From positions 1 through 41,304 of the forward strand of contig JAQUWU010000041.1 of the NCBI GenBank assembly GCA_028692715.1: a stretch of DNA of 41,304 bases, read 5' to 3'. Positions 7,483 through 41,137 of this stretch are shown one piece after another. The stretch is from Paludibacter sp. (GTDB lineage Bacteria; Bacteroidota; Bacteroidia; Bacteroidales; Paludibacteraceae). How positions within the stretch are numbered: the first letter of the stretch is position 1; each line of letters starts with the position of its first letter. Below the pieces are notes generated by a model. It did no database searches, was not told where the DNA came from, and was given only the letters and a program-made list of their open reading frames with translations. Both the position numbers and the translations under genes were made by a program.

Positions 7483-8481
7483 TTATTTACTCAAACTGCT
7501 CGTTTTATTTTGTTGATTTTTCCATACCAATGCACTTGCACCTACAATAGCAGCATCACCAGAAACAAGTTTAGAAGGTAGTACCTTTATTTTATTTTTA
7601 TAAACTGTTAAAAGGTGGTCTTCCATACTTTCAATTGTAGGCCGTAATAACAAATTTCCAGCTGCCATCGGACCTCCAAAAAGGAAAATTGCTTCAGGAC
7701 TAAAATGATGAACCGTATCTGCTAATGCTTGTCCCAACCATTTACCAGTTGAATTAAAAACTTCCAATGCAATTTCATCGCCTTTTAAGGCTGCTTCACA
7801 AATATTTTTTGCAGTTAGTTCATTGTATGAATAACCTGTCAACAAACTTTTGGTATCATTATATTGAGCAAGCAACTCAAATGCAGTTCGTTTCATTCCT
7901 GTGGCAGAGCAATAAGCTTCGAGATGACCCTTCGCTCCACAGCCACATAAACGTCCATTTGGAATAAGCATAGTATGTCCACATTCTCCAGCAAAACCAT
8001 CCTGGCCATAAACCAAGTTTCCATTGACAACCAGTCCACTTCCCACACCCGTACCTAAGGTGTACATTACAAAATTTCTCATGTCTATAGCCCCTCCAAA
8101 CATCATTTCTCCAATTGCAGTAGCGTTTGCATCGTTTGTTAAGGTTATTGTTTGTATATAAGGAAATTTTTCTTTCAATAAAGATACAAATGGTATTACA
8201 CCTTTAAACGAAAGATTAGGAGCGTGTTCAATTGTGCCAGAATAATAATTTGCATTCGGCGCTCCTATTCCGATTCCAATAATATGAAGATTCACCTCAG
8301 TTTGATACAATCTCTCCAGCAGATTATTGATATTGCCTGATAGCTTATTTGTATACTCTGTAATATCATTATATTCTGATGTAGAGAAATAATCTTTAGC
8401 TAGTACATTGCCATTTTGATCTACTAGTCCTAAAACTGTATTTGTACCTCCAATATCAATTCCAATTGCAACCTGTTTCAT
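7483..8481 (-). CDS. ROK-family sugar kinase (probable glucokinase)
   Basis: The 332-residue protein has the ROK layout: phosphate-binding GIDIGGTN (7-14), catalytic D117 in TNDANA, the LGTGVGSG adenosine motif near 142, ECGH with zinc ligand H169, and the zinc-loop sequence CGCGAKGHLE (179-188). The usual loop is CxCGxxGCxE; here the third cysteine is histidine (H186), which could still bind zinc. ROK kinases phosphorylate glucose, fructose or amino sugars in the cytosol. As last gene of the PUL it would turn the released hexose into its 6-phosphate, and glucose is the natural guess for an alpha-glucan locus. A stem-loop with T-tract just before its start may lower its expression. Confidence 0.85.
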   Translation of the reverse strand: MKQVAIGIDIGGTNTVLGLVDQNGNVLAKDYFSTSEYNDITEYTNKLSGNINNLLERLYQTEVNLHIIGIGIGAPNANYYSGTIEHAPNLSFKGVIPFVSLLKEKFPYIQTITLTNDANATAIGEMMFGGAIDMRNFVMYTLGTGVGSGLVVNGNLVYGQDGFAGECGHTMLIPNGRLCGCGAKGHLEAYCSATGMKRTAFELLAQYNDTKSLLTGYSYNELTAKNICEAALKGDEIALEVFNSTGKWLGQALADTVHHFSPEAIFLFGGPMAAGNLLLRPTIESMEDHLLTVYKNKIKVLPSKLVSGDAAIVGASALVWKNQQNKTSSLSK

Positions 8482-8489
8482 AAATAATC

Positions 8490-8533
8490 AAAAAAATTCT
8501 ATAGCAGACTGTTTTTTGCAATCTACTATAGAT
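8490..8533 (-). terminator. intercistronic terminator-like stem-loop before the ROK kinase
   Basis: On the minus strand TCTATAGTAGATTG pairs with CAGTCTGCTATAGA (14 bp with two G-T pairs) around a CAAAAAA loop, and a T-rich tract follows at once. The T-tract ends about 10 nt before the kinase ATG. It lies 22 nt after the stop of the six-hairpin glycosidase gene, so it should end or attenuate the upstream transcript. Confidence 0.65.
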
Positions 8534-8554
8534 GTCAACTAAAACAACTAATAT

Positions 8555-11233
8555 CTATTTTACCCTGTTTATAATCATGGCATCTATTAATGCCTGATTT
8601 ATATATGTATTCATATTTTCATTTTCTGTTTCCAAACTTATCTCAAACAGGTGTTTGCCTTTCGATAGCTTAATTTGAATACTGTTAGTATAACCCCAAT
8701 TAGACCATTCGTTAGCTCCCCGTTGAGGGAATACTATCGTTCCAGCTGTACTACCATCCACTTTTAGCATTCGAATAGCACATTTGTTTTCAGTGTTTAC
8801 CGGACCGTTACCGTTTGCATATCTAAATTTCAAAGTATATACACCTGATTTGTTTGCACTAAAAGGTAAAGTGATATTTGTATTAACAGAATTGTTTGTT
8901 TCAACATACCCCTTCCCTTGATAGTTGTTTTGTTTGTTATCAGACTTCTGGATAAAATCCTCTAATTCAATGGTATTCTCATTTCGTTTTTCACAAACAA
9001 TTATCGGTTCGGAAGTAAAAGATGGAACTTTATTTTTATCTATTGCGATAATCTGATATTCTGAATATCCTTTATATGGAACCTTTAATTTTGTTTTTAA
9101 AGTCTTCTTCCATAATTTGCCATTTCTCAAAATTGAATACGAAACCGCATTCTCAATTTGTGACCATGTTAGTGATTTGTTAGAGTAACTTCCTAAAGGG
9201 GTTTCTAACGAAGTATAATTACTTGTTTTGTTTATAGGCTCAGCATCTATGTCTTTATTATCCAACACAATTTTCACTGAATGTGTGCCTGATAATAAGT
9301 ATGAAATGGCTGCGGTTGTCGATTTTATTCCATCAATCTCAAAATCAACAATTCGGTTTCCATAGCCACTCATTTCAATATTCAAGATAGTATTACGAAC
9401 TTTAAAATTGGTGAGTGTTCGAGTTCCTGAAAGTGCTTTTGGTACCAGTGGTTGAAATCTAAGACTGTCATCATCAAATTTTACTCCAAAAAGAATTTTA
9501 TGAACTAAAGCCAGATTACCGGAAAGACTCCATAGCATATTACTAGAGTTGATTTGCGTTCCGGCAAAATCACCTGTTTCCGCTACAAAATTCTCTTTGT
9601 TTGTGAGAAATAATGCGGCAGGACGATAAATTGCTGCTATACTTTCCAAAACAGATTGTTCGTTACCTACTTGTGTCGATGCTAATGCCCAATAGGCTTG
9701 TACAAACGGCCATACTCCATTATTGTGGTAGGGTGGTATATTAGGGATTTGTGGATAAATACAAGAGATTCCAAAATCAGTAACAGGAACACTAGAAACT
9801 ATTTTTTTGCTTCTTTCGGCATTAGAAATGCCAAATATAACACATAAAGCCTCCCCTAAAGCTTCAGATCGAGGTGAAACCGATTTAAAATTTCTTCCAT
9901 ACAGATATTGAGCATAATACCCTTTATCTTCTAACCAAAGATACTTGTTAATTCCCTCTTTAATGTGCTCAGCAATTTTGGAATGCTTAACAGCTACTTC
10001 TTCATCATTGAGTATCTCTGCCATCTTTGAAAGAATTATATTGGCCTGATAGTGAACTGCATTTGTTCCCAGACATTCAGACTCGTAAATGTCTGCAGGT
10101 TGCATCCAACGAGGATAAGTTTGTTCGCGCCAATCAAGAAAAGAGGATTCACCTTTTACCAGACCGGTTTCTGTATCATAAGCATTGACTATATCTGCTT
10201 CAATAGATTTTTTGATAATTCCATAGGACTGACGCAACCAATCCATGTTTCCGGTTGCTTTGTATAATTCCCATGCAGCTACAGCCCATATCATACGATC
10301 AGTGGATACAGGGTAAGCACCACCTGTCCCGGTGTCCTGAATAATAAGATTGTTTTTTACTTTGCGCAACAGACTATATTCTGCAACTTTCGGTTGTAAA
10401 TATGCCATTGAAAGTATTATACTATAACTTATATCACGTGTCCAAACACCAGCCCATTCCTTGCCCGTGCGGAAAGTACTATCGGGTTCTACAGCCTTAA
10501 TCATTTCTTCTGTGGTAAGATTATAAATGGCATCAGAAATTGAAAAGTCTGATTTATATTGCGGAAAAGCACTTATATCTTTAGTCAGATTCCAACGATC
10601 TTCAGTAAACTTTATGTCCTGTTTTTTATTCATTATCAGGGTTGTTTCATAAATACTATCGGCGTCAGGGTCGGTTAGTTGCAATCCAGGTTTATTGTAA
10701 AGGTTACTAAAGTCCCACGACAACGGGGCAGCACTACCCGCAACATAAACACCCCTGAAATCAGCTTTAGCAAGCTTATCGCCGTTATAAAGTGTGTAAT
10801 AGCCATTGGTTTCAAATGCTTTGAATACTTTTCGCATGTCAAGTCGAATAGTCCAAACTGTATTTTCGGGTAAATTGATTCCGGCAGGAATAGCCTGATT
10901 TTGTTTTAACTGCATTCCAAAAACCACATTCGTAGTACATTTCCCATTTTCGGGAACTAAAGTTACAACATGATCAATTCCGGAAGGCATTTCATTGTCG
11001 CGGGAGTTGATACTAAACTTAAATTTTATAGTTGGACTGTATTTGTCAGCTTCCAGACTACGATAATTGGATGTAAGTTCTACCGATGAAACAGCATTCG
11101 CCGTAAAAGTACCTTGGACTACCTTATCCGGGAAAATAGTAAATGCTTTCGATTTGTATATTACTGCCTGCAGAGCAGAAAGTTGGAAACAAATCACAAA
11201 TAATAATGTTGTAATTCTTAGTTTTAAATTCAT
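8555..11233 (-). CDS. secreted six-hairpin glycosidase (GH63/MGH1-like) with C-terminal CBM-like domain
   Basis: The 892-residue protein starts with a signal peptide (about 1-23, ending ALQA). Residues 25-220 are beta-rich, including a binding-module-like GVYVAGSAAPLSWD near 161. Residues about 225-590 look like an (alpha/alpha)6 barrel: WTRDISYSIILS with D267, SSFLDWREQTYP with D367, NAVHYQANIILS, and a late AETGDFAGTQ with E552. This resembles GH63/MGH1-like and glycogen-debranching barrels; the named acids are catalytic candidates only. A fibronectin-like stretch (665-745) and a galactose-binding-type domain (about 753-892, beginning TIELEDF) of the CBM6/35 kind follow. It lies between the GH31 and ROK genes. 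An exo-acting alpha-glucosidase in the periplasm is the best guess; family number is unsure. Confidence 0.7.
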   Translation of the reverse strand: MNLKLRITTLLFVICFQLSALQAVIYKSKAFTIFPDKVVQGTFTANAVSSVELTSNYRSLEADKYSPTIKFKFSINSRDNEMPSGIDHVVTLVPENGKCTTNVVFGMQLKQNQAIPAGINLPENTVWTIRLDMRKVFKAFETNGYYTLYNGDKLAKADFRGVYVAGSAAPLSWDFSNLYNKPGLQLTDPDADSIYETTLIMNKKQDIKFTEDRWNLTKDISAFPQYKSDFSISDAIYNLTTEEMIKAVEPDSTFRTGKEWAGVWTRDISYSIILSMAYLQPKVAEYSLLRKVKNNLIIQDTGTGGAYPVSTDRMIWAVAAWELYKATGNMDWLRQSYGIIKKSIEADIVNAYDTETGLVKGESSFLDWREQTYPRWMQPADIYESECLGTNAVHYQANIILSKMAEILNDEEVAVKHSKIAEHIKEGINKYLWLEDKGYYAQYLYGRNFKSVSPRSEALGEALCVIFGISNAERSKKIVSSVPVTDFGISCIYPQIPNIPPYHNNGVWPFVQAYWALASTQVGNEQSVLESIAAIYRPAALFLTNKENFVAETGDFAGTQINSSNMLWSLSGNLALVHKILFGVKFDDDSLRFQPLVPKALSGTRTLTNFKVRNTILNIEMSGYGNRIVDFEIDGIKSTTAAISYLLSGTHSVKIVLDNKDIDAEPINKTSNYTSLETPLGSYSNKSLTWSQIENAVSYSILRNGKLWKKTLKTKLKVPYKGYSEYQIIAIDKNKVPSFTSEPIIVCEKRNENTIELEDFIQKSDNKQNNYQGKGYVETNNSVNTNITLPFSANKSGVYTLKFRYANGNGPVNTENKCAIRMLKVDGSTAGTIVFPQRGANEWSNWGYTNSIQIKLSKGKHLFEISLETENENMNTYINQALIDAMIINRVK

Positions 11234-11361
11234 TGAAATAAAGTTAAATATTTTTTTTACATGTTTACTAGTTACTGAAGAGTCTTTCTTACATTAACAA
11301 ATAGGCACTTCTCTGCTACACCTATTACCATTTAATTTGTTATATTTATATGCATTTGGAA

Positions 11362-11376: not shown

Positions 11377-11471
11377 CTCTAAATATGTTCATGTTTTTCG
11401 AGTCCCTAATTATTTATATACAATTGGATTCCATCGATTGGAGTAGCACCACATATAATCGAGAAGCAGTT

Positions 11472-13934
11472 TTATATTGTAGCCTTCATTATGGCATAAT
11501 TTTTAGTTAACTGATTGAAGCTAATAATGTATTTGCCAACTTCGGGTATTGTATATGTAATATCAGGGGCAGTAGGCAATCCTTTTTCAGCTGTTCCACT
11601 TATTCCCACCGCATTCCCCCAAACATCATCCGAACTATCTTTTTGAGTCCAAAATTTAAATGATTGCTTTCCGACAGATAGGGGAATAGTATCTGTGACC
11701 CACTTATTATTTCCAAGATACTTCATGGGTAAGGTCAATGTAGTAGATTTATTAAACACTCCACTGATATACATTGAGGGTATCAATGCCTTATCAATTG
11801 TTGGTTGAGTGTCAGCAATTATTTTTACATATCGAACCGAATCTTTAGACCAGTTAGAATAAGCTATGGTATTATTCAAAACATATCCAATCCGATAGGT
11901 GCGGTTTACTTTTCTATTTCCTTCTGTTTGATTAATAATTATTTTCAATGAATCTTCATGAAATTTTGAAGAAACAAACTGATGGACAGCATAGTCTCCA
12001 GTCTGATAATCGTATCCATTTCCAGCATCGTCGTATAGTTTCCCCTGAGCTGAGCCATCAGTATTAGGATTCATCAGTAATGTAACTGAATCTGTTTTAT
12101 ATTCAGCAGTACTTTGGATAATACCCGTTATAGGTACAATAGCTCCCGGACGAAGAAAAACATAAGGCTGATAGCCATCGTCTATATTTTCAAACTTAAC
12201 CTGATTCCAATTTCCTTTTGGAAAACTTACATTGGTTGCCCAACGAGGTGCTATCAACAAATCACTTCCAAGCAAAAATAGCTGCTGTTCAGAACGTAGA
12301 TTAGCATCAGTATAGTCAGCAAAGAAAGCTGGTTGCATTATTGGATTTCCACTTACTGAAGCTTCCCTAAACAGGCTATAAAGATAAGGCATAAGCCTGT
12401 AACGACGATTTAATGCAGTACGCGAAACGTCTTCAATAGACTTTCCAAAAGCCCATGGTTCCTGATCAATTGTATTATTTGAACTATGGTTACGCGAAAA
12501 TGGATAATAGGCTCCCAGAGCCATCCAGTGTCCCAATAATTCTGCATTGCAATCTCCATCAAAGCCACCTATATCCGGACCATTGAACGGTTGACCCGAC
12601 AAACTCAGATTAATGCACATCGGAATAGACATTTTAAGATAATCCCAGGTTGATCTGTTATCACCAGTCCAGGTAGCTGCATAACGTTGCCCACCCAAAA
12701 AGTTAGAACGGGATAAAATGAACGGACGTTTGTCTGGATTAGCGGATATTAGTCCATCCCGACTCGATTTAACCATCAACATTCCATATACATTATGGTA
12801 TCTGGCATGTGAACCAGCGGGCAAATCACCACCACCTCTGTGTATATTATCCTCAGGCATGGTCCCATTTGATCCGTTAAACACTGAAGGCTCATTCATA
12901 TCATTCCATACGCCATCTATACCCAAAGACATAAAATTACTATATAGATCAGCCCACCAACATTGAGTGGCAGGGCGGGTAAAGTCGGGGAAAACACAAT
13001 TACCCGGCCATACAGTGCCGTTGAATTCTTGTCCTGTGGAAGTTCTCACAAAATGTCCTCTTGCTACTCCGGAATCGTATACTGTATATCCGGTTTCTTT
13101 TTTCACTCCGGGGTCAATCATATATACTGCTTTAAAATTCTTGGTGTGTAAATAATCATTTAGACCTTTTGGATTAGAGAATGTTGTTGGATTGAATGTA
13201 AAGACCTTATAATTGGACATATAGTCAATATCCAACCAAATAACATCAGCTGGGATTTTACGATTTCTGAATTCATCAGCTATTTCCTTTACACGCGTAT
13301 CTGGGCTATAGGTATACTTACTTTGCTGATAACCAATAGCCCAAAGTGGAGGAAGATTTATTTTCCCGGTAAGTTCGGCAAGAGTTTTTTGAACTTCCAT
13401 TGGGTTTTGTTTTTCAATGATTATCACACGAAAAGCCGGACCTTCAGAAGTAATAGTCAATGGGTTTGATAAGTCAAAATACTGTTTCCAGCTATTATCG
13501 GCAATAATACCAAAAGCAGTTCCATCTTTGCGAACACCCATTACCCAAGGGTGAGATTGATAAAGTCTTTTCCCGTTATCGACAGAAGTATATAAATAAT
13601 TATCTGTATTCCATAAAGTTATACTTGTATTGTTACGCCTTAATGAACCTGTAACTTCTCCATTTCCATATAAATCAGCATCCTCATCATAAGTAATAGT
13701 AACTGAAGATTTTCCGTTGATTTTGGAAAATACCGGGCGCGTTTTCCAGTTGTCTGGCACAGAGCCTTGAGGTTGTAGGTTTTTTACTAATGCCAATGAA
13801 GGTAAAGTTCCGGTTGAATCCATATTAGCCGGACAAAAAACTGCCACTCCTTCATTAGTTAAAAATGAAGTTTGTGCAAAAAGAGAACTAAAAAGGAAGA
13901 TGAAGAGTATTGTAATATCTATTTTGATTTTCAT
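11472..13934 (-). CDS. GH31 alpha-glucosidase with one C-terminal binding module
   Basis: I start at the ATG at 13934, giving 820 residues. A frame extension to 13973 adds 13 residues before the signal peptide, and the paralogue at 32587-35991 starts at the equivalent methionine. After the signal peptide (ending LFAQ), the GH31 N-terminal beta domain precedes the barrel. DGVWNDMNEPSVF holds nucleophile D345 and ATWTGDN holds acid/base D425; the beta domains and one starch-binding-like module (about 720-820, starting PSMYISGVFN) follow. It removes alpha-linked glucose from non-reducing ends by a retaining mechanism; linkage is unknown. Unlike its paralogue it lacks a T9SS sorting domain and extra modules, so it is probably periplasmic. 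Confidence 0.9.
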   Translation of the reverse strand: MKIKIDITILFIFLFSSLFAQTSFLTNEGVAVFCPANMDSTGTLPSLALVKNLQPQGSVPDNWKTRPVFSKINGKSSVTITYDEDADLYGNGEVTGSLRRNNTSITLWNTDNYLYTSVDNGKRLYQSHPWVMGVRKDGTAFGIIADNSWKQYFDLSNPLTITSEGPAFRVIIIEKQNPMEVQKTLAELTGKINLPPLWAIGYQQSKYTYSPDTRVKEIADEFRNRKIPADVIWLDIDYMSNYKVFTFNPTTFSNPKGLNDYLHTKNFKAVYMIDPGVKKETGYTVYDSGVARGHFVRTSTGQEFNGTVWPGNCVFPDFTRPATQCWWADLYSNFMSLGIDGVWNDMNEPSVFNGSNGTMPEDNIHRGGGDLPAGSHARYHNVYGMLMVKSSRDGLISANPDKRPFILSRSNFLGGQRYAATWTGDNRSTWDYLKMSIPMCINLSLSGQPFNGPDIGGFDGDCNAELLGHWMALGAYYPFSRNHSSNNTIDQEPWAFGKSIEDVSRTALNRRYRLMPYLYSLFREASVSGNPIMQPAFFADYTDANLRSEQQLFLLGSDLLIAPRWATNVSFPKGNWNQVKFENIDDGYQPYVFLRPGAIVPITGIIQSTAEYKTDSVTLLMNPNTDGSAQGKLYDDAGNGYDYQTGDYAVHQFVSSKFHEDSLKIIINQTEGNRKVNRTYRIGYVLNNTIAYSNWSKDSVRYVKIIADTQPTIDKALIPSMYISGVFNKSTTLTLPMKYLGNNKWVTDTIPLSVGKQSFKFWTQKDSSDDVWGNAVGISGTAEKGLPTAPDITYTIPEVGKYIISFNQLTKNYAIMKATI

Positions 13935-14106
13935 GAAATTTAATGAAGGATAAGTTTGTTTGTTTTTAATCATATTTTACAAAATACGATTCTATGTTTA
14001 TTCTAAAATTAGTATAGTTTTAACCAAGCATATATCAGTGAGTTCAGATTTGTATACATGCTGTTAATAATTAGAAGATATATGTAATTATTTTTATGTT
14101 TAAAGC

Positions 14107-30088: not shown

Positions 30089-30109
30089 ATTATTGCATTT
30101 AAATTTATG

Positions 30110-30117
30110 CAAAGATA
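30110..30117 (-). promoter_or_regulatory. -7 box of the regulator promoter
   Basis: The minus strand reads TATCTTTG, an exact TAnnTTTG match, 21 nt upstream of the ATG at 30088. A weaker GTTGT lies near the -33 distance. The box overlaps the TTG that would extend the gene, which supports the later ATG. Confidence 0.5.
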
Positions 30118-30364: not shown

Positions 30365-32536
30365 TTAAAGGAGTACTTTTACAAAACGTGTTTCAACCAT
30401 AGATTTCACCTTAACTATTACGAATTTATCATTTCTATCATCACATTTAATAATAACAGTCGGAGATTCGAACTTTTGACGAAAAATACACTGACCCTTG
30501 AGTGTGAATAATTCTATTTCTTTGGTTTGATTACAATTTGTATTTATAAAGATTTCACCAGTATGTTTTATTGAATAAACTTCAAATTGATCTTTAGCAA
30601 TATGTTCCTCTGTCATCTGGCTTTTCTCAATGGAGTAATTTTGAATCTCATCATTAAATGTAAAAGTATAGTTTCCAGATTGAGAAATATTGAATTTAAT
30701 ATTTGGTAACCCTCCAGTAGTAATTGTTGCGATTCCGTTAAGACCATTAGCATTACCCCAATCTTCACCAGTCCAGTCTGTTGTATTCGTAAATTTAAGT
30801 TCATAATCGCCAGTTGACAAAAGTACCGGACTTGTTAGCCAGTTATTACCGGTTGATATTGTCATAGGATTTTTGCCCGGATCCCAATTATTAAAGGTAC
30901 CTCCAACATACATTGACTTTTGAACGGGCGAAATAGTATAATTTCCAGAAATTACGAAAGAGTTCTCCTGATTGTTTTTTGTTGCAAAAGCATTAATAAC
31001 TGTTGATTTGTTTATTATTATCGGAGTTGTATAAACAGGAGAATCAAAATTCGGTTTAGTGCCATCAGTAGTATAATGTATAATTGCTTCTGGAGTTTCC
31101 GACGAAATTGAAACAATACAACTTCCGCTATAATTGCCAGATTTTAAACTGAATGTTGGAGTGCTGACTTTATTTGGATTGCTTGCGACACGAAAAATAC
31201 GACAACCATGTGAAACTACCGGTACAGATAAACCATTACAAACTCCTAAATCAGTATGTTCCCATAAATCCCTCACAAATGCACTACCTGAAATCCCAAG
31301 ATCATTCATAAAATCAATGTTACGAGTTTCAGTAGTTGTTTCCCTATTAAAGAAGCCTACAATCCAATCTCCATTCGTCATTTGTCCTTTCCACACCTGA
31401 CTACGATCATCTGAAGGATTGTTCGTAAGAGGTTTACCAACAAATCCATCAACATTTAAAGCTAGTAATTCAGCATTCTGGTAAATCCATAAAGAAGATC
31501 CGATAGTATTGTACTGGTCGGCAATAGATACCGGACCACCCGCCATTAAATGGAGAGAAACGACACTTTTTCTTTCATCATCTGTGCTAAATGTATTTAG
31601 ACGTATAAAATCTCCATCCAAAATTATTTTTTCTTTACCGGAAATCTTAGACCAATAAATGTATCCATCAAATGGATTTGCAAACTGTGACCAGCCATCG
31701 CGCTTCACCCCACGAGATATATTACTGAAACGTTCCCAACCACCTTCAGCACAATCTTCATTAATTCGAATCATATGTCCGAAGGTTTGTTCCGTTACAG
31801 CATCATTATAGAGATTAGGCATTACCAAGCTGAGAAAAATTCCGTTAGCATCACAAGCTTCACGCATCCACCGCAAAGCTGTTTGATAATAAGTCAATGG
31901 ACGTGATGGCCCAACTGTCCCCATATTTCTATCCCACCCGCTTTCGAACCATGAAAGAAAGTCCACTCTGAGATATTTCACCCCCATGTCGGCATAATGC
32001 TGTATATACCCTTTCACGTATTGTTCGGCTCCCGGCTTGTCCACCTGCAACCAGGTAAACCATTTAGCACTTTCAGAACTGTTAATTAAAGTAGAAATAG
32101 AGATATTAGTTCCTTTTACTTTCAATCCCGCCCTTGCAGCTCCGGGATTAACCCATAGTGGATTGTCGTATATACCCAATGTCATACCACGTTTTTGCAG
32201 TTCTGCCGACCACCATGCATAATCGTGCACCCAGCTGCTGGAGTGTTTTGTTCGATAACCATATTGATTGTAATCTACATTTCCCCAGCCATCAATACAA
32301 ATCATATTAAAGCCATATTGCTTTAAATTATTATCCACCCAGTTGATATTAGATAAAAAGTCGGCTTCGGAAATATAGTTGTCTGCTACTCCTGCTTTTT
32401 CCTGTACAAAATTATTTTCGTAAACATCCCAGTAAAGAGGAGCTTTGTATGGATTATTTGGACTTTGAGCAAACACACTACAGTTGAACAAATTACTTAT
32501 GAGCAGAAATATGTAAAAAAAGCGGTATTGATTCAT
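30365..32536 (-). CDS. multimodular GH27-type glycosidase, T9SS-secreted
   Basis: The 723-residue protein has a signal peptide (1-24, ending VFAQ). The GH27-type barrel spans about 30-450: GFNMICIDGW, LGIYDNPLWV, VKYLRVDFLSWFES with nucleophile D192, MIRINEDCAEGGW with acid/base D261, and ILDGDFIRLN. A chitobiase-type C-terminal domain (about 458-536; IIHYTTDGTKPNFDSPVYT), one starch-binding-like module (about 540-640; MYVGGTFNNWDPGKNPM) and a T9SS sorting domain (650-723) follow. It is the largest of three GH27 paralogues and the only one with binding module and T9SS signal, so probably acts on polymer outside the cell. It is 50 bp after the 1134-residue GH31 gene. Isomalto-dextranase-like action is inferred. 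Confidence 0.8.
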   Translation of the reverse strand: MNQYRFFYIFLLISNLFNCSVFAQSPNNPYKAPLYWDVYENNFVQEKAGVADNYISEADFLSNINWVDNNLKQYGFNMICIDGWGNVDYNQYGYRTKHSSSWVHDYAWWSAELQKRGMTLGIYDNPLWVNPGAARAGLKVKGTNISISTLINSSESAKWFTWLQVDKPGAEQYVKGYIQHYADMGVKYLRVDFLSWFESGWDRNMGTVGPSRPLTYYQTALRWMREACDANGIFLSLVMPNLYNDAVTEQTFGHMIRINEDCAEGGWERFSNISRGVKRDGWSQFANPFDGYIYWSKISGKEKIILDGDFIRLNTFSTDDERKSVVSLHLMAGGPVSIADQYNTIGSSLWIYQNAELLALNVDGFVGKPLTNNPSDDRSQVWKGQMTNGDWIVGFFNRETTTETRNIDFMNDLGISGSAFVRDLWEHTDLGVCNGLSVPVVSHGCRIFRVASNPNKVSTPTFSLKSGNYSGSCIVSISSETPEAIIHYTTDGTKPNFDSPVYTTPIIINKSTVINAFATKNNQENSFVISGNYTISPVQKSMYVGGTFNNWDPGKNPMTISTGNNWLTSPVLLSTGDYELKFTNTTDWTGEDWGNANGLNGIATITTGGLPNIKFNISQSGNYTFTFNDEIQNYSIEKSQMTEEHIAKDQFEVYSIKHTGEIFINTNCNQTKEIELFTLKGQCIFRQKFESPTVIIKCDDRNDKFVIVKVKSMVETRFVKVLL

Positions 32537-32586: not shown

Positions 32587-35500
32587 TTATTTTTCAATTA
32601 TGACCTTGAAAGTTTGTGATATTGTTGCTGTTGTCACTTTTACAAAATATTCACCTTGCTTTATCTGTTTTTTGATACTAACGCTGCTATGCCTATTTTT
32701 AAGTGGAGATTCAATAAGCATTACCCCCGTTAAGCTATAAATACTAACCATTGCATTAGAAGTATCATCAATATCAATATTTAATGTCCCTGTTGTAGGG
32801 TTAGGATAAACTTTGATATTTTGAATGAAGTTACTTTCTACCCCGGTTTCAGATGATTTGAGAAAAAGAATTCTATTATTTGCGAGATCTATTGTTATAT
32901 TATAGTATCCTTCATTAGAACTGTCAATCACCCATTTATTGTCAGAGCCAATCCCAAGATTTAAAATTTCGAAGTTAGATAATGCCAAATCCTGACCTGA
33001 TGTTTTCGGGTGAATCCATGGCCAACCATTGCCCCATGTTTTTGTTGTTCCTATTTTAAATTCGCCAGGACTTAATTTTCCAGACCAACTGAAATTTGCA
33101 GGATTTAATGGATTGGGAATCATATCAGAAGCGTATCTTAAATCCCAACCGCCGGCTGTGGCACTCCCTGCAAAAAAAAGGGTTGGAAAATAGTCTAACG
33201 ATTTAATTGAAATGGTATGAGCCTCAAGATTAATCGTAATATTATAACTCCCATCTGTTGATACTTTCCATTTTAAATCCTGAATATCAGATGGGCAACC
33301 TGTGAATGCTGTATACTCCGTAGATGTAAGTGTCTGATCTTGTGTTGTTGCCAACAACCAATCCCCATCGCACCAATCTCCATTTGCAGCGTGGAACTTA
33401 AAATTACCTGCTTTTAATTGACCCTTAAAACTAAATATATTCAAATTAGTTGAATCCTGAATTAATGCAATTCCAGTCGGAGTCCAATCCGCTGGAGTTG
33501 CATCGCCAACAATCGATAAATAATCATATTTTGGAGCTTTTAGTATGGAGTAATTTAATGTTAACTGATTGAAACTAATTATATATTCCCCGTTCTCGGA
33601 CAATGTAAAATTAATTCCCGTAGTGTCGTTCGAGATAATACCAGCAGTCCCCATAGTTCCGTTGGCATTTCCCCATTCCACTCCTGTACGATTTTTCAAA
33701 GAAATGAATTTAAATTCGTGCTGTCCAGCTGTGAGATACATTCTCGTAGATTTCCATTTTCCATTTCCCTGGTATTGCATAGGCAGCGAAGCGGGATTCC
33801 ATTTATTGAAACTTCCTCCAATAAACATTGATGGAAATAATGCATAATCCACTGTCGTTAAAATATCAGGAATATATTTAATGTATTGAGTTGTATCTGA
33901 TGACCAATCAGAATATACAACATCATTACCGGTTACATAACCAATACGAAACAGTCGAGTGGACTTTCTGCTTCCTTCGATTTTGTTGATTGTTATTTTT
34001 AAAGAATCCTGATTATACTTCGACGCTGAGAACTGCTGAATGTCGTAATCTCCGTTTTGGTATCCGTAACCGTTTGATGCATCGTCATACATAATACCTG
34101 CTGCTGAGCCGTCTGATGCCGGATTAATCAGTAATGTAACTGAATCTGTATTATAATCTTCTGTACTTTGTACCAGCGTTCCCATTGGCACAATAGCCCC
34201 TTCGCGTAATAAAACGGTAGCCTGATAACCATCATCGAAATTCTCAAATTTAATTTTATCCCAATCACCTTTCGGGAAGTTTATATTAGATGCCCAACGA
34301 GGAACAACTAATAAATCCTTTCCCAACAAGAATATTTGTTCTTCACTTCGTAAAGTAGTATCCTGAAAGTCGGCAAAAAATGCCGGTTGCATAATGGGGG
34401 TACCATCTACTGATGCTTCTCTGAAAAGAGTATATAAATAAGGCAAAAGCATGTAACGCCGATTAATTGCGGTGCGACTTACAGATTCTATTTCCGTCCC
34501 AAATGCCCAAGGTTCCTGATTAACTGTGTTTGAAGAACTATGATTTCGATAAAATGGGAAATAGGCTCCTAACGCCATCCATTTCCCCAATAAATCGGCA
34601 TTTCCATCTCCATCAAATCCACCAACATCTGGTCCATTGAAAGGTTGTCCTGATAAACTAAGGTTCAAGGACATTGGGATAGATAATTTCATATGTTCTT
34701 CGGTCGAACGATTGTCACCAGTCCAGGTTGCAGCGTATCTTTGTCCACCCAAAAAGTTTGAGCGCGACAAAATAAACGGACGTTTATCCGGATTCGCAGC
34801 CATTATTCCTTCGCGGCTTGATTTTACCATCAACATACCATACACATTGTGGTATCGGCAATGAATATCCTGTGGAAGTCCACTGCCTCCTCTATGAATA
34901 TTATCTTCGGGCATAGTTCCGTCCGGACCATCGAATACTGACGGCTCGTTCATATCGTTCCAAACTCCATCAACACCATTATCCATAAAATCTTTATATA
35001 ATCCTGCCCACCAACTTTGTGTCACCGGATTCGTATAATCAGGAAAAGCACAAGCTCCTGGCCAAACACTGCCATTAAACTCTTTTCCATTTTTATCGAT
35101 TACCCAATGATTTCCTAATTTTCCATCATCGTAAACAGAATAACCTGTCTCTTTTTTTACACCGGGATCAATCATATAAACTGATTTGATTTTTTTGCTG
35201 TGTAAATAATCGTTCAGACCTTTGGGATCAGGAAATTTTGCTGGGTCGAAAGTAAATATCTTATAATTATCCATGTAGTCTATATCCATCCAGATAACAT
35301 CACAGGGAATTTTCCGGTTACGAAATTCATCCGCAATTTCTTTCACTCTTGAGGCTGGATAATAAGAGAATCTACATTGTTGATATCCCAATGCCCAAAG
35401 AGGAGGTAAGTTCATTTTCCCGGTCAATTCCGATAAGGTTTTTATTACCTCCATTGGATTCTCTTTCTCTATAATAATAACCCTAAATCCAGGGCCTTCA

Positions 35501-35991
35501 GAGGTAATGGTAATCGGATTTGATAGGTCAAAATATTGTTTCCATGAATTATCGGCAATGATACCGAACGAAGATCCATCTTTTCGAACTCCAAGTACCC
35601 ATGGGTGTGACTGATAAAGCCTGTTTCCATTATCTTTGGCCGAATAGGTATAGTTATCGGTATTCCATAAAGTAACCTTCGTGTTGTTTCTTTTCAAAGT
35701 ACCTGTCACTTCTCCATTACCATATAAGTCGACAGATTCATCGAAAGTTATGGTTACCGCAGATTTTCCGTTGATTTTGGAAAATACCGGGCGCGTTTTC
35801 CAGATGCCTGGCACAGAACCTTGAGGTTGCAGATTTTTTACTAATGCTAATGAAGGTAATGTACGAACCGAGTCCATATCTGCCGGACAAAAAACAGCAA
35901 CTCCCTGTTCAGCAAGAAATGAGGATTGAGCTTTAGCAACAAAAGATAATAAAAGTAAAGGGAATAATAAATTTAATAATTGTATCTTCAT
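32587..35991 (-). CDS. GH31 alpha-glucosidase with three binding modules, T9SS-secreted
   Basis: The 1134-residue protein has a signal peptide (1-21, ending AKAQ) and a GH31 N-terminal beta domain. The barrel has nucleophile D346 in DGVWNDMNEPSVF and acid/base D426 in ATWTGDN, followed by the C-terminal beta domains to about 715. Three binding modules lie at 718-818 (MFIGGSFNKWNPASLPM), 822-932 (LSIVGDATPADW) and 934-1046 (LFFAGSATAGGWD). A T9SS sorting domain (1056-1134) begins VYPNPTTGTLNIDI. The first 800 residues are closely paralogous to the 11472-13934 enzyme, including a 43-nt stretch of identical DNA. It should be an extracellular exo- or endo-acting alpha-glucosidase; linkage is unknown. 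It is 10 bp after the 447-residue binding-protein gene. Confidence 0.9.
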   Translation of the reverse strand: MKIQLLNLLFPLLLLSFVAKAQSSFLAEQGVAVFCPADMDSVRTLPSLALVKNLQPQGSVPGIWKTRPVFSKINGKSAVTITFDESVDLYGNGEVTGTLKRNNTKVTLWNTDNYTYSAKDNGNRLYQSHPWVLGVRKDGSSFGIIADNSWKQYFDLSNPITITSEGPGFRVIIIEKENPMEVIKTLSELTGKMNLPPLWALGYQQCRFSYYPASRVKEIADEFRNRKIPCDVIWMDIDYMDNYKIFTFDPAKFPDPKGLNDYLHSKKIKSVYMIDPGVKKETGYSVYDDGKLGNHWVIDKNGKEFNGSVWPGACAFPDYTNPVTQSWWAGLYKDFMDNGVDGVWNDMNEPSVFDGPDGTMPEDNIHRGGSGLPQDIHCRYHNVYGMLMVKSSREGIMAANPDKRPFILSRSNFLGGQRYAATWTGDNRSTEEHMKLSIPMSLNLSLSGQPFNGPDVGGFDGDGNADLLGKWMALGAYFPFYRNHSSSNTVNQEPWAFGTEIESVSRTAINRRYMLLPYLYTLFREASVDGTPIMQPAFFADFQDTTLRSEEQIFLLGKDLLVVPRWASNINFPKGDWDKIKFENFDDGYQATVLLREGAIVPMGTLVQSTEDYNTDSVTLLINPASDGSAAGIMYDDASNGYGYQNGDYDIQQFSASKYNQDSLKITINKIEGSRKSTRLFRIGYVTGNDVVYSDWSSDTTQYIKYIPDILTTVDYALFPSMFIGGSFNKWNPASLPMQYQGNGKWKSTRMYLTAGQHEFKFISLKNRTGVEWGNANGTMGTAGIISNDTTGINFTLSENGEYIISFNQLTLNYSILKAPKYDYLSIVGDATPADWTPTGIALIQDSTNLNIFSFKGQLKAGNFKFHAANGDWCDGDWLLATTQDQTLTSTEYTAFTGCPSDIQDLKWKVSTDGSYNITINLEAHTISIKSLDYFPTLFFAGSATAGGWDLRYASDMIPNPLNPANFSWSGKLSPGEFKIGTTKTWGNGWPWIHPKTSGQDLALSNFEILNLGIGSDNKWVIDSSNEGYYNITIDLANNRILFLKSSETGVESNFIQNIKVYPNPTTGTLNIDIDDTSNAMVSIYSLTGVMLIESPLKNRHSSVSIKKQIKQGEYFVKVTTATISQTFKVIIEK

Positions 35992-36001
35992 TTTTTATAA
36001 A

Positions 36002-37345
36002 CTAATTTATTATTATTTGTCTCGCAAATTGTTTTTTGTTACTCTCAATTTTCAGAATAAATATCCCTTTAATATTTTTGTTCACTATATCAAATTCGTT
36101 TCCTAGATTGCGTTGAGAATAAATCCAGCGTCCGTCTAAACTCATAAGTTGTACCAGATCCGCAGAATTATTGTCAAGCATTCTAATGTGGATTCCATTC
36201 GTTATGGAGTAAATTTTAATAAGATTATCTTGATTAATAGTCTCTATCGCGGTTTCACCCACAATATACTGACTTTCAATAGTTTCGTACAATGTATTTA
36301 TTTTTATTAAGTATTTACCTTGTTGACTTTCTTCTATTGTCCATTTATTGTCAGCATATGATCCATTTGTACTTTCTGCATATAAAGTTGCTCCAAGTAT
36401 TGGGTCATTTGCATTTATCGCGTGAAGACTAATAGGATTCCAGTCCATTTGTCCAAGAAGTTTGAAAGCATTGCTTTCCACATATTCGGGTCTGATTTTA
36501 AGTACACCATCAAAGGTGTAGGCTGTTTTGTTTTGCTCATCTTGTTGAAGTTCAATTGCATTACCAGCATTCCAACCTGCTTCGGTGGCACCACCGACAA
36601 TATAGAGCTTCTTGTTAGTATTGACAATCTGGGCAGTTGAAGTTTTACTTAATGTATTTACTTTTACTTTATACAATGGGTCATTAACAGTGACGTACCA
36701 ACCAGAGACATTGGCATCATTTGTTATGCGGTATGAGGTTTCTCCGGTTATATCATTGTCTTCGAGTACTGGAACGAAATACTTTGTATTTTCACCTGGC
36801 GTTGATGTGGACATGAACTTCAAATCGCCCTGATGTAATTCACCACCGTATATAAAAATATTGTCTAATCCCTTTGAAAGTTTCATTGTAGTATTCGGAA
36901 TAGCGCTTCCAGTCACCCAAACTTCATCAAAATTGTCAATAGTTTCTGAAATAACTGACATAGTAAGTTTTTTCAAATCGACTGTCACAGTATAAACACC
37001 TGTTTGCCCGATAATGAATTTATAATCTATTGCATTATTATTTGTATTATATACTAAACTGTGCGTTTCCCCCAATACAACAGCTTCGTTATCGGTGGCA
37101 GCATTAAAACAGGGCATCCACGTGTTGAGCAAATTAATAAACTTAAAATCGCTTTGATTTAAAACACCTGTCCAACTAAAAACAGCGCTTTCAGCTGTTG
37201 ATTCCACTAAAGTCATTTTTTGAGCATTTCCATTGTCCCAACCGTTGGGAGTTGCTCCTCCAATTAAATATACTTGTGAATAGTCCTGCGAGAAAAGAGA
37301 AAATGAAATAAGTATCCCTATAATGATTAAATAAATGTTTTTCAT
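36002..37345 (-). CDS. T9SS-secreted three-module binding protein, 447 aa
   Basis: A signal peptide (1-20, ending LFSQ) leads to three SusE/F-like modules at about 24-132, 141-243 and 247-361, headed VYLIGGATPNGWD, VWVTGSAIPNTTM and LYIVGGATEAGWN. The second lacks the usual tryptophan after the SAIP motif and may be a weaker binder. A T9SS sorting domain (372-447) ends KGIFILKIESNKKQFARQIII. The gene is sandwiched 11 bp after one GH31 gene and 10 bp before another, so all three are translated from one message. Non-catalytic glucan binding at the cell surface is inferred. Confidence 0.8.
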   Translation of the reverse strand: MKNIYLIIIGILISFSLFSQDYSQVYLIGGATPNGWDNGNAQKMTLVESTAESAVFSWTGVLNQSDFKFINLLNTWMPCFNAATDNEAVVLGETHSLVYNTNNNAIDYKFIIGQTGVYTVTVDLKKLTMSVISETIDNFDEVWVTGSAIPNTTMKLSKGLDNIFIYGGELHQGDLKFMSTSTPGENTKYFVPVLEDNDITGETSYRITNDANVSGWYVTVNDPLYKVKVNTLSKTSTAQIVNTNKKLYIVGGATEAGWNAGNAIELQQDEQNKTAYTFDGVLKIRPEYVESNAFKLLGQMDWNPISLHAINANDPILGATLYAESTNGSYADNKWTIEESQQGKYLIKINTLYETIESQYIVGETAIETINQDNLIKIYSITNGIHIRMLDNNSADLVQLMSLDGRWIYSQRNLGNEFDIVNKNIKGIFILKIESNKKQFARQIIIN

Positions 37346-37356
37346 ATGTATAAATT

Positions 37357-39927
37357 TTACAAGATTAGCTTCTCGATTTGATTTTTACCATCGTAGTTTA
37401 AACTCACAATATAAACTCCGCTTAATTGATTAAAAGGAATAAGTAATGAAACGTTCTGTGAATTTTTAAAACTTTTGGTCATCAACTTTTTCCCTGAGAT
37501 ATTAGTTATGCTAACTGATACAGATTCGCAAAGTTCACTAAAACATACATTTAAATCGTTGGTATCTCTATGGTAGTTTAAATACGCTTTTTTACCAGCT
37601 TCAGGTAAAGATATTGCTGTATGATTGTCAGAGAAAACCACTTTAACTTCCGTTTTTTCATTACAAGAGACCAAAGGGATATATATTGTCGCAATTTTTT
37701 TTGCGCTATCATATTTCCACGTTCCTGCATCTCCCGATTCACTTTTGGTGTAAACAGTTTCATTTATTTTTACTTCAGTTGGAAGATTTACTGACAGTAA
37801 CTCCATTGTATAACTACGACTAGTCAACATTCCATTAAAGCTACCTTGAACGGGATAAATTGTATAAATTCCATTCAATCCGCTTACAGATTGTGTAATT
37901 TTGGTAAAGGAATAGTTACTTGTTTCGTAATTATTATTATCGTTCTCATCTTCATAATAATTCACTTCTCCGCTTGTGCCCGGAGCAAATTTCAGAATTA
38001 GATTATTAGGACGATTTTTTAAATGTGCTAATTTTGGAAAACAAGGAATAATAGCTCCTTCCTTGTAATAATAAGGAATATCTGATTGTGTGAAAGTACG
38101 TGTATAGGTTTTATTTCCTTCCAAGATTTCTCCACTACACACTTCATACCATTTCCCTTCAGGAAACCAAATAGACTTTGTGCTTACACCACTTGCATCC
38201 GCAGCTTCAACGATAGGAGCCGCCAAAATGTCATTGCCGAACATATATTCATCTCCATGTTTATAAGCTTCGGAATTGTCGGGTGAATCGTAATACAATG
38301 GGCGACAGATTGAAATTCCTGTATCATAAGTAATTCGAGATTGAGTATAAATATAAGGTACCAAGGCGTAACGTAATTCTATGGCCTCTTTCATTAACAG
38401 GAAATTAGAGTACTTCCATATTCTCCGTTCAATAGCGTCATTCTTAGTACTGTGAGTTCGCAATATTGGAGAGAAAACTCCATATTGAATCCAACGCAAA
38501 AATAATTCCGGATTATTATCTCCAATCTGAACATGTCCGCCAATATCGTGACTCCAATAACCATAACCTACATTTGAAGCAGTGGCTGTGAAGTAAGGTT
38601 GAAAAGCCAAGGTTGGGAAATTTGCGTAGGCATCGCCCGAAAACCCAATCTGATAACGATGATTGCCCAATCCACCCCAACGGTGAAAAATCATTGCACG
38701 TCCTTTGTTTTGTAATTTGTTGTCATTATAGAAAACATGGTTTAACCAAAAGGTATTTCCCAATTTATCAACTTCAGAACTCAATAACGTTTGTTGCCAA
38801 TCTAACCACCAAAAGTCAACTCCAATATTCTCGTGAGGACGAATAATATCTTTAAAAAACGTTTTATAAAAAGTTTCATTTTCAATATGCCAGGGAATGG
38901 TTTTATCCAAAGGTAAATTTAAGTCATTAGCTAGCGTAGTGAAATTATCTTCATCAGTGGCAACTCCATCAGCCGGATGCAGATTTAATGTTGACTTTAA
39001 ATTATTGTTATGTAACCATTGTAAAAATTCAGGGGGATTTGGAAAAAGTCTGGCATTCCAGGTCCAACCGGTCCAGCCTCCTCGACCACCATCGGCAGAA
39101 CTACCGGAGTAATGCCAATCCATATCAACGACCATGACATCAATTGGAATGTCATTTTGCTTAATTTCTCCAACAAGGTCTTTGAAATCCTGTTCCGAAT
39201 ATTCTGAATATTTCGAATACCAATAACCGAAAGCATACATGGGAGGCATTGGAATTTTACCTGCAATTTTTGTAAAATCGCTTAATGCTTTTTTGTAGTC
39301 ACGTCCATAACCCATAAAATACCAGTCCATTGCAGTCTTATCCGTACGCTCTGCCACCCAATCAATTCCTCCCGGGCGTGGTTCAAACATTAGGCTTTTA
39401 CTACCATCCTGACGCTCATGAGTTTCATCAATAACAGCCCAACCTGAACGTGATATAAGTCCGTTTTCCATTTCTGATAATTTGTTATCGCCATTAGAAC
39501 TGTCGAGAGTTCGTGTTGTTCCTTTCAAATTCAGGTTATCTGTTTTCCATGGATACCAAGTTACAACGCGGCCATCTAATGGAAATGTAATTTTTAGATT
39601 TTGTGAACTGGGAGGATTAAATGTTCCGGGAAAACTACCAATTCTGTATTGCAAAGTCAGTTTTTCCGTTTTAATATATAGGAAACCATCTTTTTCCTCT
39701 TTCGTAAAAGCTGGAACAGTTAATCGACGGTTTATTACCGCAAAAGAAGCCCTATCCTCAAATATTTGATTTCCGCTCCACTCTATTCGTATCATTTCAG
39801 GAGTTAACACCGTAAAGCGCATATCTCCTGAGATAATAATTGCATTGGGATCAGCTATAGGATTATTTTCTGCAATAATGGAAAATGAAGTGAAAAGTAT
39901 TAGAATAAGAGAAATAATTTTTTTCAT
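37357..39927 (-). CDS. GH31 glycosidase of a divergent subfamily, T9SS-secreted
   Basis: The 856-residue protein has a signal peptide (1-19, ending IIAE) and a GH31 fold. MPPMYAFGYWYSKYSEYSEQ (227-246) and VMVVDMDWH mark the early barrel. NIGVDFWWLDWQQ carries the expected nucleophile D376, and GFSGDAYANF the acid/base D432. WSHDIGGH and the FSPILRTHS block follow, then distal beta domains and a T9SS sorting domain (about 775-856). The FWWLDWQQ loop differs from the WNDMNEP of the other two GH31 enzymes here, so specificity should differ; GH31 includes alpha-1,3-glucosidases, dextranases and glucosyltransferases. It has no obvious SusE-type module. It starts an 11-bp-spaced cluster, 268 bp after the 313-residue gene. 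Confidence 0.88.
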   Translation of the reverse strand: MKKIISLILILFTSFSIIAENNPIADPNAIIISGDMRFTVLTPEMIRIEWSGNQIFEDRASFAVINRRLTVPAFTKEEKDGFLYIKTEKLTLQYRIGSFPGTFNPPSSQNLKITFPLDGRVVTWYPWKTDNLNLKGTTRTLDSSNGDNKLSEMENGLISRSGWAVIDETHERQDGSKSLMFEPRPGGIDWVAERTDKTAMDWYFMGYGRDYKKALSDFTKIAGKIPMPPMYAFGYWYSKYSEYSEQDFKDLVGEIKQNDIPIDVMVVDMDWHYSGSSADGGRGGWTGWTWNARLFPNPPEFLQWLHNNNLKSTLNLHPADGVATDEDNFTTLANDLNLPLDKTIPWHIENETFYKTFFKDIIRPHENIGVDFWWLDWQQTLLSSEVDKLGNTFWLNHVFYNDNKLQNKGRAMIFHRWGGLGNHRYQIGFSGDAYANFPTLAFQPYFTATASNVGYGYWSHDIGGHVQIGDNNPELFLRWIQYGVFSPILRTHSTKNDAIERRIWKYSNFLLMKEAIELRYALVPYIYTQSRITYDTGISICRPLYYDSPDNSEAYKHGDEYMFGNDILAAPIVEAADASGVSTKSIWFPEGKWYEVCSGEILEGNKTYTRTFTQSDIPYYYKEGAIIPCFPKLAHLKNRPNNLILKFAPGTSGEVNYYEDENDNNNYETSNYSFTKITQSVSGLNGIYTIYPVQGSFNGMLTSRSYTMELLSVNLPTEVKINETVYTKSESGDAGTWKYDSAKKIATIYIPLVSCNEKTEVKVVFSDNHTAISLPEAGKKAYLNYHRDTNDLNVCFSELCESVSVSITNISGKKLMTKSFKNSQNVSLLIPFNQLSGVYIVSLNYDGKNQIEKLIL

Positions 39928-40124
39928 ATATTTTATATCGTTTTGTTGTTAGATTTATAACTTACTCTCAAAGAATGATAATCGTAGTATTGCAACAAAT
40001 TGTAACCTTCGTTTAATCAATTATTTTAATTGCAAGTTAAACTCTTAAGTAGAATAGATTAGAATTGGATTAAATATAATGAGATGTCCTTTCATAGATT
40101 AGTTTAGATTAGATTACGCAATAC

Positions 40125-40158
40125 CTATCCGAATTCTTATAGTAAAGAATCCGGATAG
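40125..40158. repeat. 14-bp imperfect inverted repeat between operon genes
   Basis: Arms CTATCCGAATTCTT (40125-40138) and AAGAATCCGGATAG (40145-40158) pair at 13 of 14 positions around a 6-nt loop, about 40 nt past the stop of the 313-residue gene. There is no T-tract on the minus strand, so it is an RNA-stabilising hairpin or a weak terminator. Confidence 0.5.
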
Positions 40159-40195
40159 CTATCTGCGATTGTCAACTAAATTCTATTTTTTTTAT

Positions 40196-41137
40196 TTATT
40201 GCTTAATGAATTTAAACACCTGATTATTAATATTTAGAATATAAATACCTTCCACTAAAGAAGATACATTGATGTTTTCTCCTACAGAAATTCCATCATT
40301 AACCATAAGACCAGACAAATTATAGACTTTATAGCTAACTGAATTTAGATTATTTACTTTTAATGCAGATTTTACTACGTTAGAGTTTAATGAAATTGCG
40401 TCATTATTTGGAAATCTACTTGTTGTTGTGGTTTGTTTCTGAATTGAAATAGCTAATGTTTGTGTGTTGATATTAATATCATAATTTCCTGCCTCAGCGA
40501 TACTCCATTTTACATCGCCACCAGCTAATAATTGCATTTCCGTATCAGAAACTTTGATAAAAAAGTCCTGACCCCATCCTGAATTTCGATTCACGGGAAA
40601 TTTGAATTCTCCTACATTTAAATGCCCTTTATAACTAAATTCAAATGGATTTCCCGGATTTTTTGTTAGTTCAATAGAATTAGTGATATCCCAACCAATG
40701 GAGGTAGCATCACCAAGCATAAATACAGTATTAAAGCTAATTTCTGCTGTTTCTGTCATTGGTACAATTGAAATAGTAAGAGTAGTAGTATCTACAGTAA
40801 TTGAATAATTTCCAGCAGTTAAAATACTAAATTTGTTATCTGGATCGCTATCAGAAGCACGTTTTACAATGTGAGTGTCATCTGCTTTATTCCATGTTGG
40901 AAACCATGAATCATGGGTATTTTCCAGTATAAACTTAAAATCACCTGTTTTAAGCCAGGCATTGTAGTAAAATACTGATGGATTGGTCGGGTCCTGAATC
41001 ATTGGCGACGCATTACCTTTATCCCAATCGTAACGGGTTGCATCACCAATTAAACACAATTTCCGACTTGCAGAAAGTGAAGTTGTCATCACAAGAGTCA
41101 TTATAATGACTGCCATTTTAAGTAAATTAGTTTTCAT
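40196..41137 (-). CDS. T9SS-secreted two-module binding protein, 313 aa
   Basis: A signal peptide (1-24, ending SLSAS) precedes two SusE/F-like modules at about 25-128 and 136-235, headed LCLIGDATRYDWDKGNA and VFMLGDATSIGWDITNSIEL, each closing with a strand of the TTTLTISIV type. The last 60 residues (about 252-313) form a T9SS sorting domain (YKVYNLSGLMVND ... EGIYILNINNQVFKFIK). It has no enzyme motif. It is the first complete PUL gene in the window and is separated from the next GH31 gene by 268 bp holding a hairpin. Surface glucan binding is inferred from its modules and neighbours. Confidence 0.78.
   Translation of the reverse strand: MKTNLLKMAVIIMTLVMTTSLSASRKLCLIGDATRYDWDKGNASPMIQDPTNPSVFYYNAWLKTGDFKFILENTHDSWFPTWNKADDTHIVKRASDSDPDNKFSILTAGNYSITVDTTTLTISIVPMTETAEISFNTVFMLGDATSIGWDITNSIELTKNPGNPFEFSYKGHLNVGEFKFPVNRNSGWGQDFFIKVSDTEMQLLAGGDVKWSIAEAGNYDININTQTLAISIQKQTTTTSRFPNNDAISLNSNVVKSALKVNNLNSVSYKVYNLSGLMVNDGISVGENINVSSLVEGIYILNINNQVFKFIKQ

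Follow-up and report, generated by a model that had tools for sequence, protein, structure and literature searches.

The window analysed here is the whole of contig JAQUWU010000041.1 from Paludibacter sp. (GenBank assembly GCA_028692715.1; 41,304 nucleotides), which forms contig C64 of a 4.85 Mb genome in 122 contigs. Positions 7483 to 41137 hold 16 open reading frames (313–1134 amino acids), every one on the minus strand, whose products were assigned to families with Pfam and NCBIfam profiles. Adjacent, co-directional homologs of susC (25074–28151; TonB-dependent transporter; TIGR04056, 998 bits) and susD (23157–25049; PF07980, E 9.7e-58), accompanied by glycan-degrading enzymes, identify the region as a Sus-like polysaccharide utilization locus. 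It also encodes a SusE-like lipoprotein (21639–23141; PF14292 and PF16411), four more SusE/F-like proteins (SusEF1–4), a SusR-family regulator (28430–30112; NF058541, 562.5 bits against a cut-off of 480; PF19904), a glucokinase-like sugar kinase of the ROK family (7483–8481; PF00480, E 1.7e-57; TIGR00744, 195.7 bits, under the cut-off of 260), three glycoside hydrolase (GH) family 27 enzymes, three GH31 enzymes and a six-hairpin glycosidase. Read from right to left, the direction of transcription, the order is SusEF1; GH31u1-SusEF2-GH31a-IMD_A; SusR; SusC-SusD-SusE-IMD_B-SusEF3; IMD_C; SusEF4; GH31b; and six-hairpin enzyme-ROK, where the split into transcription units is one that we infer from the intergenic gaps.

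A first-pass annotation of this DNA had listed a 34-kb set of three GH27, three GH31, one six-hairpin enzyme, SusC/D/E, a SusR-like activator and a ROK kinase. The profile searches confirmed this set across the 16 genes and added the four SusF/SusE-fold proteins and the type IX secretion system (T9SS) tails described below. The same annotation had stated that the locus lacks GH13, GH66 and GH97, and indeed none of the 16 proteins reached the cut-off of any of these families; one GH27 gave the single GH97 match, which at 20.1 bits stayed below the cut-off of 32.5. The GH66 endo-dextranase that marks a GH66-type dextran locus had no match among the locus proteins or in a search of all 122 contigs, and the GH13 amylase that marks a starch utilization locus had none among the locus proteins.

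The three GH27 enzymes, IMD_A (30365–32536, with extra C-terminal domains; Melibiase_C and CHB_HEX_C_1), IMD_B (20193–21620) and IMD_C (17243–18574), carry domains that would mislead an annotator towards melibiase or alpha-galactosidase. In Pfam they match mainly Melibiase_C (E 2e-17 to 2e-16, all three), and one of them alone matches Melibiase_2 (20.9 bits, under the cut-off of 23). The best solved-structure relative of IMD_A, IMD_B and IMD_C was the isomalto-dextranase 5awo (E 1.7e-100, 1.4e-78 and 1.6e-110, respectively), presumably from Arthrobacter globiformis, while the second-best structures were 1uas for IMD_A (E 1.5e-9) and IMD_B (E 5e-12) and a GH27 arabinopyranosidase for IMD_C (E 2.9e-17). 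An alignment was made of 93 isomalto-dextranase-type rows, a few of them identical to one another, and two GH27s of alpha-galactosidase type from the same genome. Both the nucleophile and the acid/base aspartate, roles that we take to belong to D198 and D266, were found in all 93 rows of the isomalto-dextranase type, as were a VMP motif and an arginine two positions before the nucleophile, whereas the two alpha-galactosidase-type rows carried CEW or CRW and a lysine at these sites. The C-(E/R)-W substrate motif and this lysine, which we assume to be the mark of alpha-galactosidases and which appear in both outgroup rows, were absent from all 93.

Phylogeny gave a similar result. The isomalto-dextranase-type sequences separated from the alpha-galactosidase-type pair at a support of 100, and the three locus enzymes grouped with 5awo; the clustering with alpha-galactosidases that the first-pass annotation had named as grounds for refutation was not seen. 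IMD_A, IMD_B and IMD_C fell into three clades, and they look like old paralogs because each clade also holds members from other genomes. Used as a query against the genome, IMD_B returned all three IMD genes, which all lie on C64, and one alpha-galactosidase-type gene with a weak score of 23 bits. These results support the assignment of the three GH27s as isomalto-dextranase-type rather than alpha-galactosidase-type enzymes. They share with 5awo the catalytic domain, both catalytic aspartates and VMP; however, 5awo is a single enzyme, and the locus holds three paralogs from separate clades within a SusC/D system.

All three GH31 enzymes matched PF01055 (E 1e-57 to 1e-122). GH31u1 (37357–39927) scored 461 bits to structure 7wj9 and at most 151 bits to other groups. 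We equated 7wj9 with LlGH31_u1 of Lactococcus lactis, nine checked residues matching its letters at a constant offset of 20. LlGH31_u1 has strict alpha-1,3 specificity, and H280, Q343, F391 and H427 are among its contact residues (PMC9061262). These four residues were kept in GH31u1 and in all nine aligned relatives (three near-identical; L053 and two partial L072 frames excluded), and GH31u1 also shares the catalytic residues, which is consistent with a GH31_u1-type alpha-1,3-glucosidase. The window enzyme differs from LlGH31_u1 in having a signal peptide and a T9SS tail and in sitting with isomalto-dextranases. GH31a (32587–35991) and GH31b (11472–13973; PF01055, E 1.2e-122) were closest to 5djw (795 and 784 bits), which is labelled alpha-glucosidase II and which we take to be BT3299, with 6jr6, presumably FjDex31A, far behind (248 and 260 bits). 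The structure-match scores therefore disfavour an FjDex31A-type endo-dextranase role for the GH31s. At the H427 and F391 sites, GH31a and GH31b hold F and W, as is reported for glucosidase II (PMC9061262). GH31a additionally showed weak AMPK1_CBM and X25 (starch-binding-like) matches, under cut-off. Overall, the GH31 set suggests that the substrate contains alpha-1,3 bonds as well.

A simple lipobox pattern was found in SusE (IVGC), SusD (LNSC) and IMD_B (LGGC), with a doubtful one in IMD_A, and IMD_B is predicted to be a surface lipoprotein. T9SS type A tails above the TIGR04183 (NCBIfam) threshold of 23 bits were detected in six proteins: GH31a (41 bits; also PF18962, 38.5 bits), GH31u1 (30.9 bits), SusEF1 (40196–41137; PF16411, E 2.5e-23; 25.4 bits), SusEF2 (36002–37345; E 8.8e-19; 24.8 bits), SusEF3 (18761–20152; E 6.8e-22; 26.2 bits) and SusEF4 (14390–17029; E 1.7e-20; 26.6 bits). 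The four SusEF proteins thus combine a SusF/SusE fold with a T9SS tail and have no lipobox, in contrast to the usual lipoprotein form. SprA, the sole T9SS machinery gene searched, is present in the genome (SprA_N, 642 bits), so that both a sorting domain and a part of the secretion machinery were found. Neither a lipobox nor a T9SS tail turned up in the motif scans of GH31b, IMD_C and the six-hairpin enzyme, which look periplasmic, GH31b probably so.

The six-hairpin enzyme (8555–11233; PF17389, Bac_rhamnosid6H, E 1.2e-9), an alpha/alpha-barrel glycosidase with a CBM35-like C-terminal domain, had additional weak Pfam matches to Trehalase and MGH1-like. Its C-terminal part matched carbohydrate-binding modules, including those of cycloisomaltooligosaccharide glucanotransferase, and its profile gave weak matches to trehalase, chitobiose phosphorylase, a rhamnosidase, YgjK and a GH65 enzyme. 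AlphaFold models reached a mean pLDDT (predicted local distance difference test) of 54 and 60, and Foldseek on these low-confidence models ranked GH94 first at low identity, followed by GH78, GH63, GH92 and others. Of 296 genomes sampled from the phylum, 20 encode the enzyme, the source genome counted. Eleven neighbourhoods (L140–L150), drawn from roughly half of the genomes that gave a match, were examined: GH66 was nearby in four, GH31 with an isomalto-dextranase-type GH27 in one and GH31 with GH97 in one, and the scanned neighbours were unrelated or without assignment in the remaining five. Isomalto-dextranase-type GH27, GH66 and six-hairpin genes occurred together in loci L081 and L082. 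In L146, the six-hairpin homolog is accompanied by GH97 and by a GH31 whose N-terminal domain is Lmo2446-like; the Listeria GH31 group of Lmo2446 includes cycloalternan enzymes.

One scan of a named genome collection with short patterns, which undercounts, returned 118 stretches with a relative of the GH27 set, from which 79 distinct loci were kept. A few come from the same genome, L006 and L011 overlapping on a single contig, and the counts are lower bounds, since flanks of at most 10 kb were used and many contigs end early. The usual order was SusR-SusC-SusD-SusE-GH27-GH97, in Bacteroides, Prevotella, Muribaculaceae and others, and isomalto-dextranase-type GH27s reside in Sus-like loci across Bacteroidales. 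GH97 was present in at least 56 of the 79 loci (the next recognised gene after GH27 in 53), GH31_u1 in at least 11, GH66 in at least 7 and the six-hairpin enzyme in at least 6, while seven GH13 probes from the source genome found GH13 in one locus, on the opposite strand. The nearest relative, a Paludibacter sp. metagenome-assembled genome, shares most parts of the locus (IMD_A 92%, six-hairpin enzyme 90%, ROK 84% and SusC 77% identity); it had no GH97 match within 80 kb and carried a GH66 gene in an adjoining downstream SusC-type locus. The absence of GH97 noted in the first-pass annotation is therefore true here and shared by this pair, and is not a property of the locus family. The same relative holds a 1462-residue frame (G001:C2:234766-239151) whose GH27 stretch is 68% identical to IMD_B over 429 columns and which has about 1000 further residues.

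Bacteroides clarus YIT 12056 (L010) and B. nordii WAL 11050 (L072) encode SusC and SusD proteins 69–77% identical to those of the window, together with an isomalto-dextranase-type GH27, GH97 and GH31_u1; the SusC and GH31_u1 of B. nordii are each split over two frames in its record. GH31_u1 accompanied a window-like SusC in 5 of 8 loci compared to 5 of 53 others (P = 0.002) when L006 was scored from sequence beyond the standard flank, in 4 of 8 compared to 5 of 53 (P = 0.013) within the flank, and in 2 of 6 compared to 5 of 53 (P = 0.14) when three near-identical Bacteroides loci were merged. For these counts, loci without a SusC match over 300 columns were excluded, L011 was merged into L006 and a partial 28% hit in L053 was dropped; the enrichment is a hint only. 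A family of proteins of 640–760 amino acids was also observed near isomalto-dextranase-type GH27s (L061:4667-6901, L066:13833-15776, L070:1750-3675, L073:11690-13954 and L074:15514-17796), with no Pfam match at 1e-5 in L061, L066 and L073 and a SusF/SusE match in L070. Its members are perhaps large surface glycan-binding proteins.

The contig ends at 41304, and the right border of the locus is not seen. Positions 41205–41304 match two other contigs (96 bases at 94% and 31 bases at 90%), and the assembly may have broken at a repeat. At the matching end, the nearest relative has SusEF4 and SusEF1, followed by genes that matched neither the window set nor the probes for GH97, GH66 and GH13. The GH13 and GH97 matches of the source genome lie on other contigs. 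Its GH97 closest to the GH27-following type consists of two pieces at the ends of contigs C57 and C47 (L101:8719-10089 and L100:2-1045), which overlap by 60 residues at 97%, are 55–58% identical to the GH27-following GH97 of L018 and are perhaps one gene split in assembly. A further GH97 or GH66 may lie past the end of the window, but the corresponding end of the nearest relative shows neither, and the closest GH97 of the genome sits at the ends of contigs other than C64. On the left, the locus adjoins what may be the remnant of an integrative element: positions 444–7235 encode RteC, a GH108 muramidase, a primase-like protein of the toprim/AAA kind, and an AAA_21 protein accompanied by a small partner.

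On this sequence evidence, the locus probably serves an extracellular bacterial alpha-glucan with both alpha-1,6 and alpha-1,3 linkages, the likeliest candidates being alternan and 1,3-branched dextran. The type of the GH27s, the lack of GH66 in the genome and the GH97 or GH66, but hardly GH13, near the GH27s of relatives argue for an alpha-1,6-containing glucan, and the GH31 set, in pointing also to alpha-1,3 bonds, narrows the target to mixed 1,3/1,6 glucans. The alpha-1,6 or mixed-linkage target proposed in the first-pass annotation is thus supported in its alpha-1,6 part and narrowed in the rest. Its suggestion that GH27 replaces GH66 as the polymer-cutting step fits this genome but does not extend to the locus family, in which GH66 partners GH27 in some loci. 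Furthermore, GH27 is listed among the exo-acting dextranase families (PMC10316084), so that these enzymes would be no simple stand-in for the endo-acting GH66 and no endo-acting enzyme is evident in the locus.

Several observations weigh against this interpretation. The alternan reading assumes that isomalto-dextranase also cuts this polymer. The GH27 assignment is anchored on one isomalto-dextranase structure, and the tree, built quickly, had an outgroup of two rows and drew a long-branch warning from the program for 5awo and IMD_C. The three GH27s could differ in linkage or in exo/endo mode, as IMD_B shares only 40% identity with IMD_C and 45% with IMD_A. In GH31u1, Y99 and M122 of LlGH31_u1 are not kept and S455 is replaced by T, although Y99 is reported as not strictly conserved and a Y99F variant retains the preference (PMC9061262). 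The glucosidase-II likeness of GH31a and GH31b does not prove an alpha-1,3 preference, and SusE/F folds and AMPK/X25-type matches are equally typical of starch loci. With the Pfam tail model PF18962, GH31a alone exceeded the cut-off, and T9SS export of the other five proteins rests on TIGR04183 scores of 24.8–30.9 bits against the cut-off of 23. Additionally, a search for a shared SusR operator or promoter motif, using 12- and 14-mers across 8 upstream regions, found nothing above four shuffled sets per word length.

A plain dextran locus, with a mostly linear alpha-1,6-glucan as substrate, the GH31s acting on alpha-1,6 bonds or minor branches and isomalto-dextranase in the role of GH66, appears unlikely to us. 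Isomaltodextranase hydrolyses alpha-1,6-glucan to isomaltose (PMC13084667), relatives pair GH27 with GH66 and GH97, and FjDex31A provides a precedent for a GH31 dextranase (PMC10316084), all of which would suit such a locus; however, GH31a and GH31b stand far closer to 5djw than to 6jr6, GH31u1 is of the alpha-1,3 type, and the separate GH66 that the nearest relative carries in its adjoining SusC-type locus would be redundant. Starch, glycogen or pullulan would be the substrate if GH13 had been lost and GH31 enzymes with starch-binding-like modules did the work, as SusR, the SusE/F folds and the sub-cut-off matches in GH31a might suggest. We regard this as quite improbable: GH13 is missing from the locus and lies near a single one of the 79 isomalto-dextranase-type loci, the GH13 genes of the source genome are elsewhere, those on contig C15 having SusC- and SusD-like genes nearby, and LlGH31_u1 has a relative activity of 0.16% on maltose (PMC9061262, table). 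A galactoside locus, in which the GH27s would be alpha-galactosidases or beta-L-arabinopyranosidases, takes its appeal from the Pfam name Melibiase_C given to the C-terminal domain. Structure scores to such enzymes were weak, the substrate motif is altered, the three GH27s form a separate clade and no Pfam galactoside-enzyme family was found among the other locus proteins; the alpha-galactoside reading was rejected on scores, motif and tree, and a galactoside target of either kind is very improbable.

Parts of the locus resemble described systems. The FjDexUL locus of Flavobacterium johnsoniae (Fjoh_4428-4435) likewise combines SusR, SusC, SusD and SusE/F homologs with GH31 and targets branched alpha-1,6-glucan, but its eight listed genes use GH66, GH97, GH65 and the dextranase FjDex31A and none is GH27; its GH97 is tabulated as active on isomaltose and nigerose (PMC10316084). 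The SusR2 (BT3091) dextran regulon of B. thetaiotaomicron, as described in PMC3878776, has a SusR-type regulator, SusC/D/E and a gene named glucan 1,3-alpha-glucosidase, and differs in containing a dextranase gene. A putative GH87/GH97/GH99 locus of Prevotella melaninogenica, also from Bacteroidota, has a SusR-like gene and a proposed alpha-1,3/1,6 exopolysaccharide target, yet carries a GH87 mutanase along with GH97, and the main text does not mention GH27 or GH31 (PMC13421300). Similarly, the Muribaculaceae B2 locus (GH66, GH97, CBM20/CBM69) is a predicted dextran/starch locus of gut Bacteroidales, but its outer-membrane enzyme is GH66, and GH27 is unmentioned in the main text (PMC8636109). 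No description of an isomalto-dextranase-type GH27 in a Bacteroidota locus was met in the literature searched; subscription papers, CAZy and PULDB, outside that scope, may record one.

For a mixed alpha-1,6/alpha-1,3-glucan, we propose that the polymer would be held at the surface by five SusE/F-type proteins (one lipoprotein and four with T9SS tails), where the lipoprotein IMD_B, perhaps also IMD_A, would cut isomaltose off non-reducing ends, and T9SS-delivered GH31u1 and GH31a would take off the alpha-1,3-linked glucose that would block IMD_B. Short products would be imported via SusC/SusD, IMD_C, GH31b and the six-hairpin enzyme would complete breakdown to glucose in the periplasm, and the ROK kinase would phosphorylate the glucose. 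SusR would sense a product and switch the locus on. More tentatively, this may be one of a class of loci not yet recognised, spread through Bacteroidales, in which an isomalto-dextranase-type GH27 annotated as melibiase acts as surface depolymerase and, together with GH31_u1, forms a dedicated alternan system that removes two glucose units per cut from the ends and needs no endo-acting enzyme; T9SS export would in this lineage take the place of lipoprotein attachment in bringing two GH31s and the additional SusE/F proteins to the surface. We consider this wider proposal possible but doubtful. If the main reading is right, many Bacteroidales GH27 genes that read as melibiase would be alpha-glucan enzymes, an assignment that the related loci of the B. 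clarus and B. nordii type strains make testable, and these bacteria may consume alternan, branched dextran and similar exopolysaccharides made by lactic acid bacteria.

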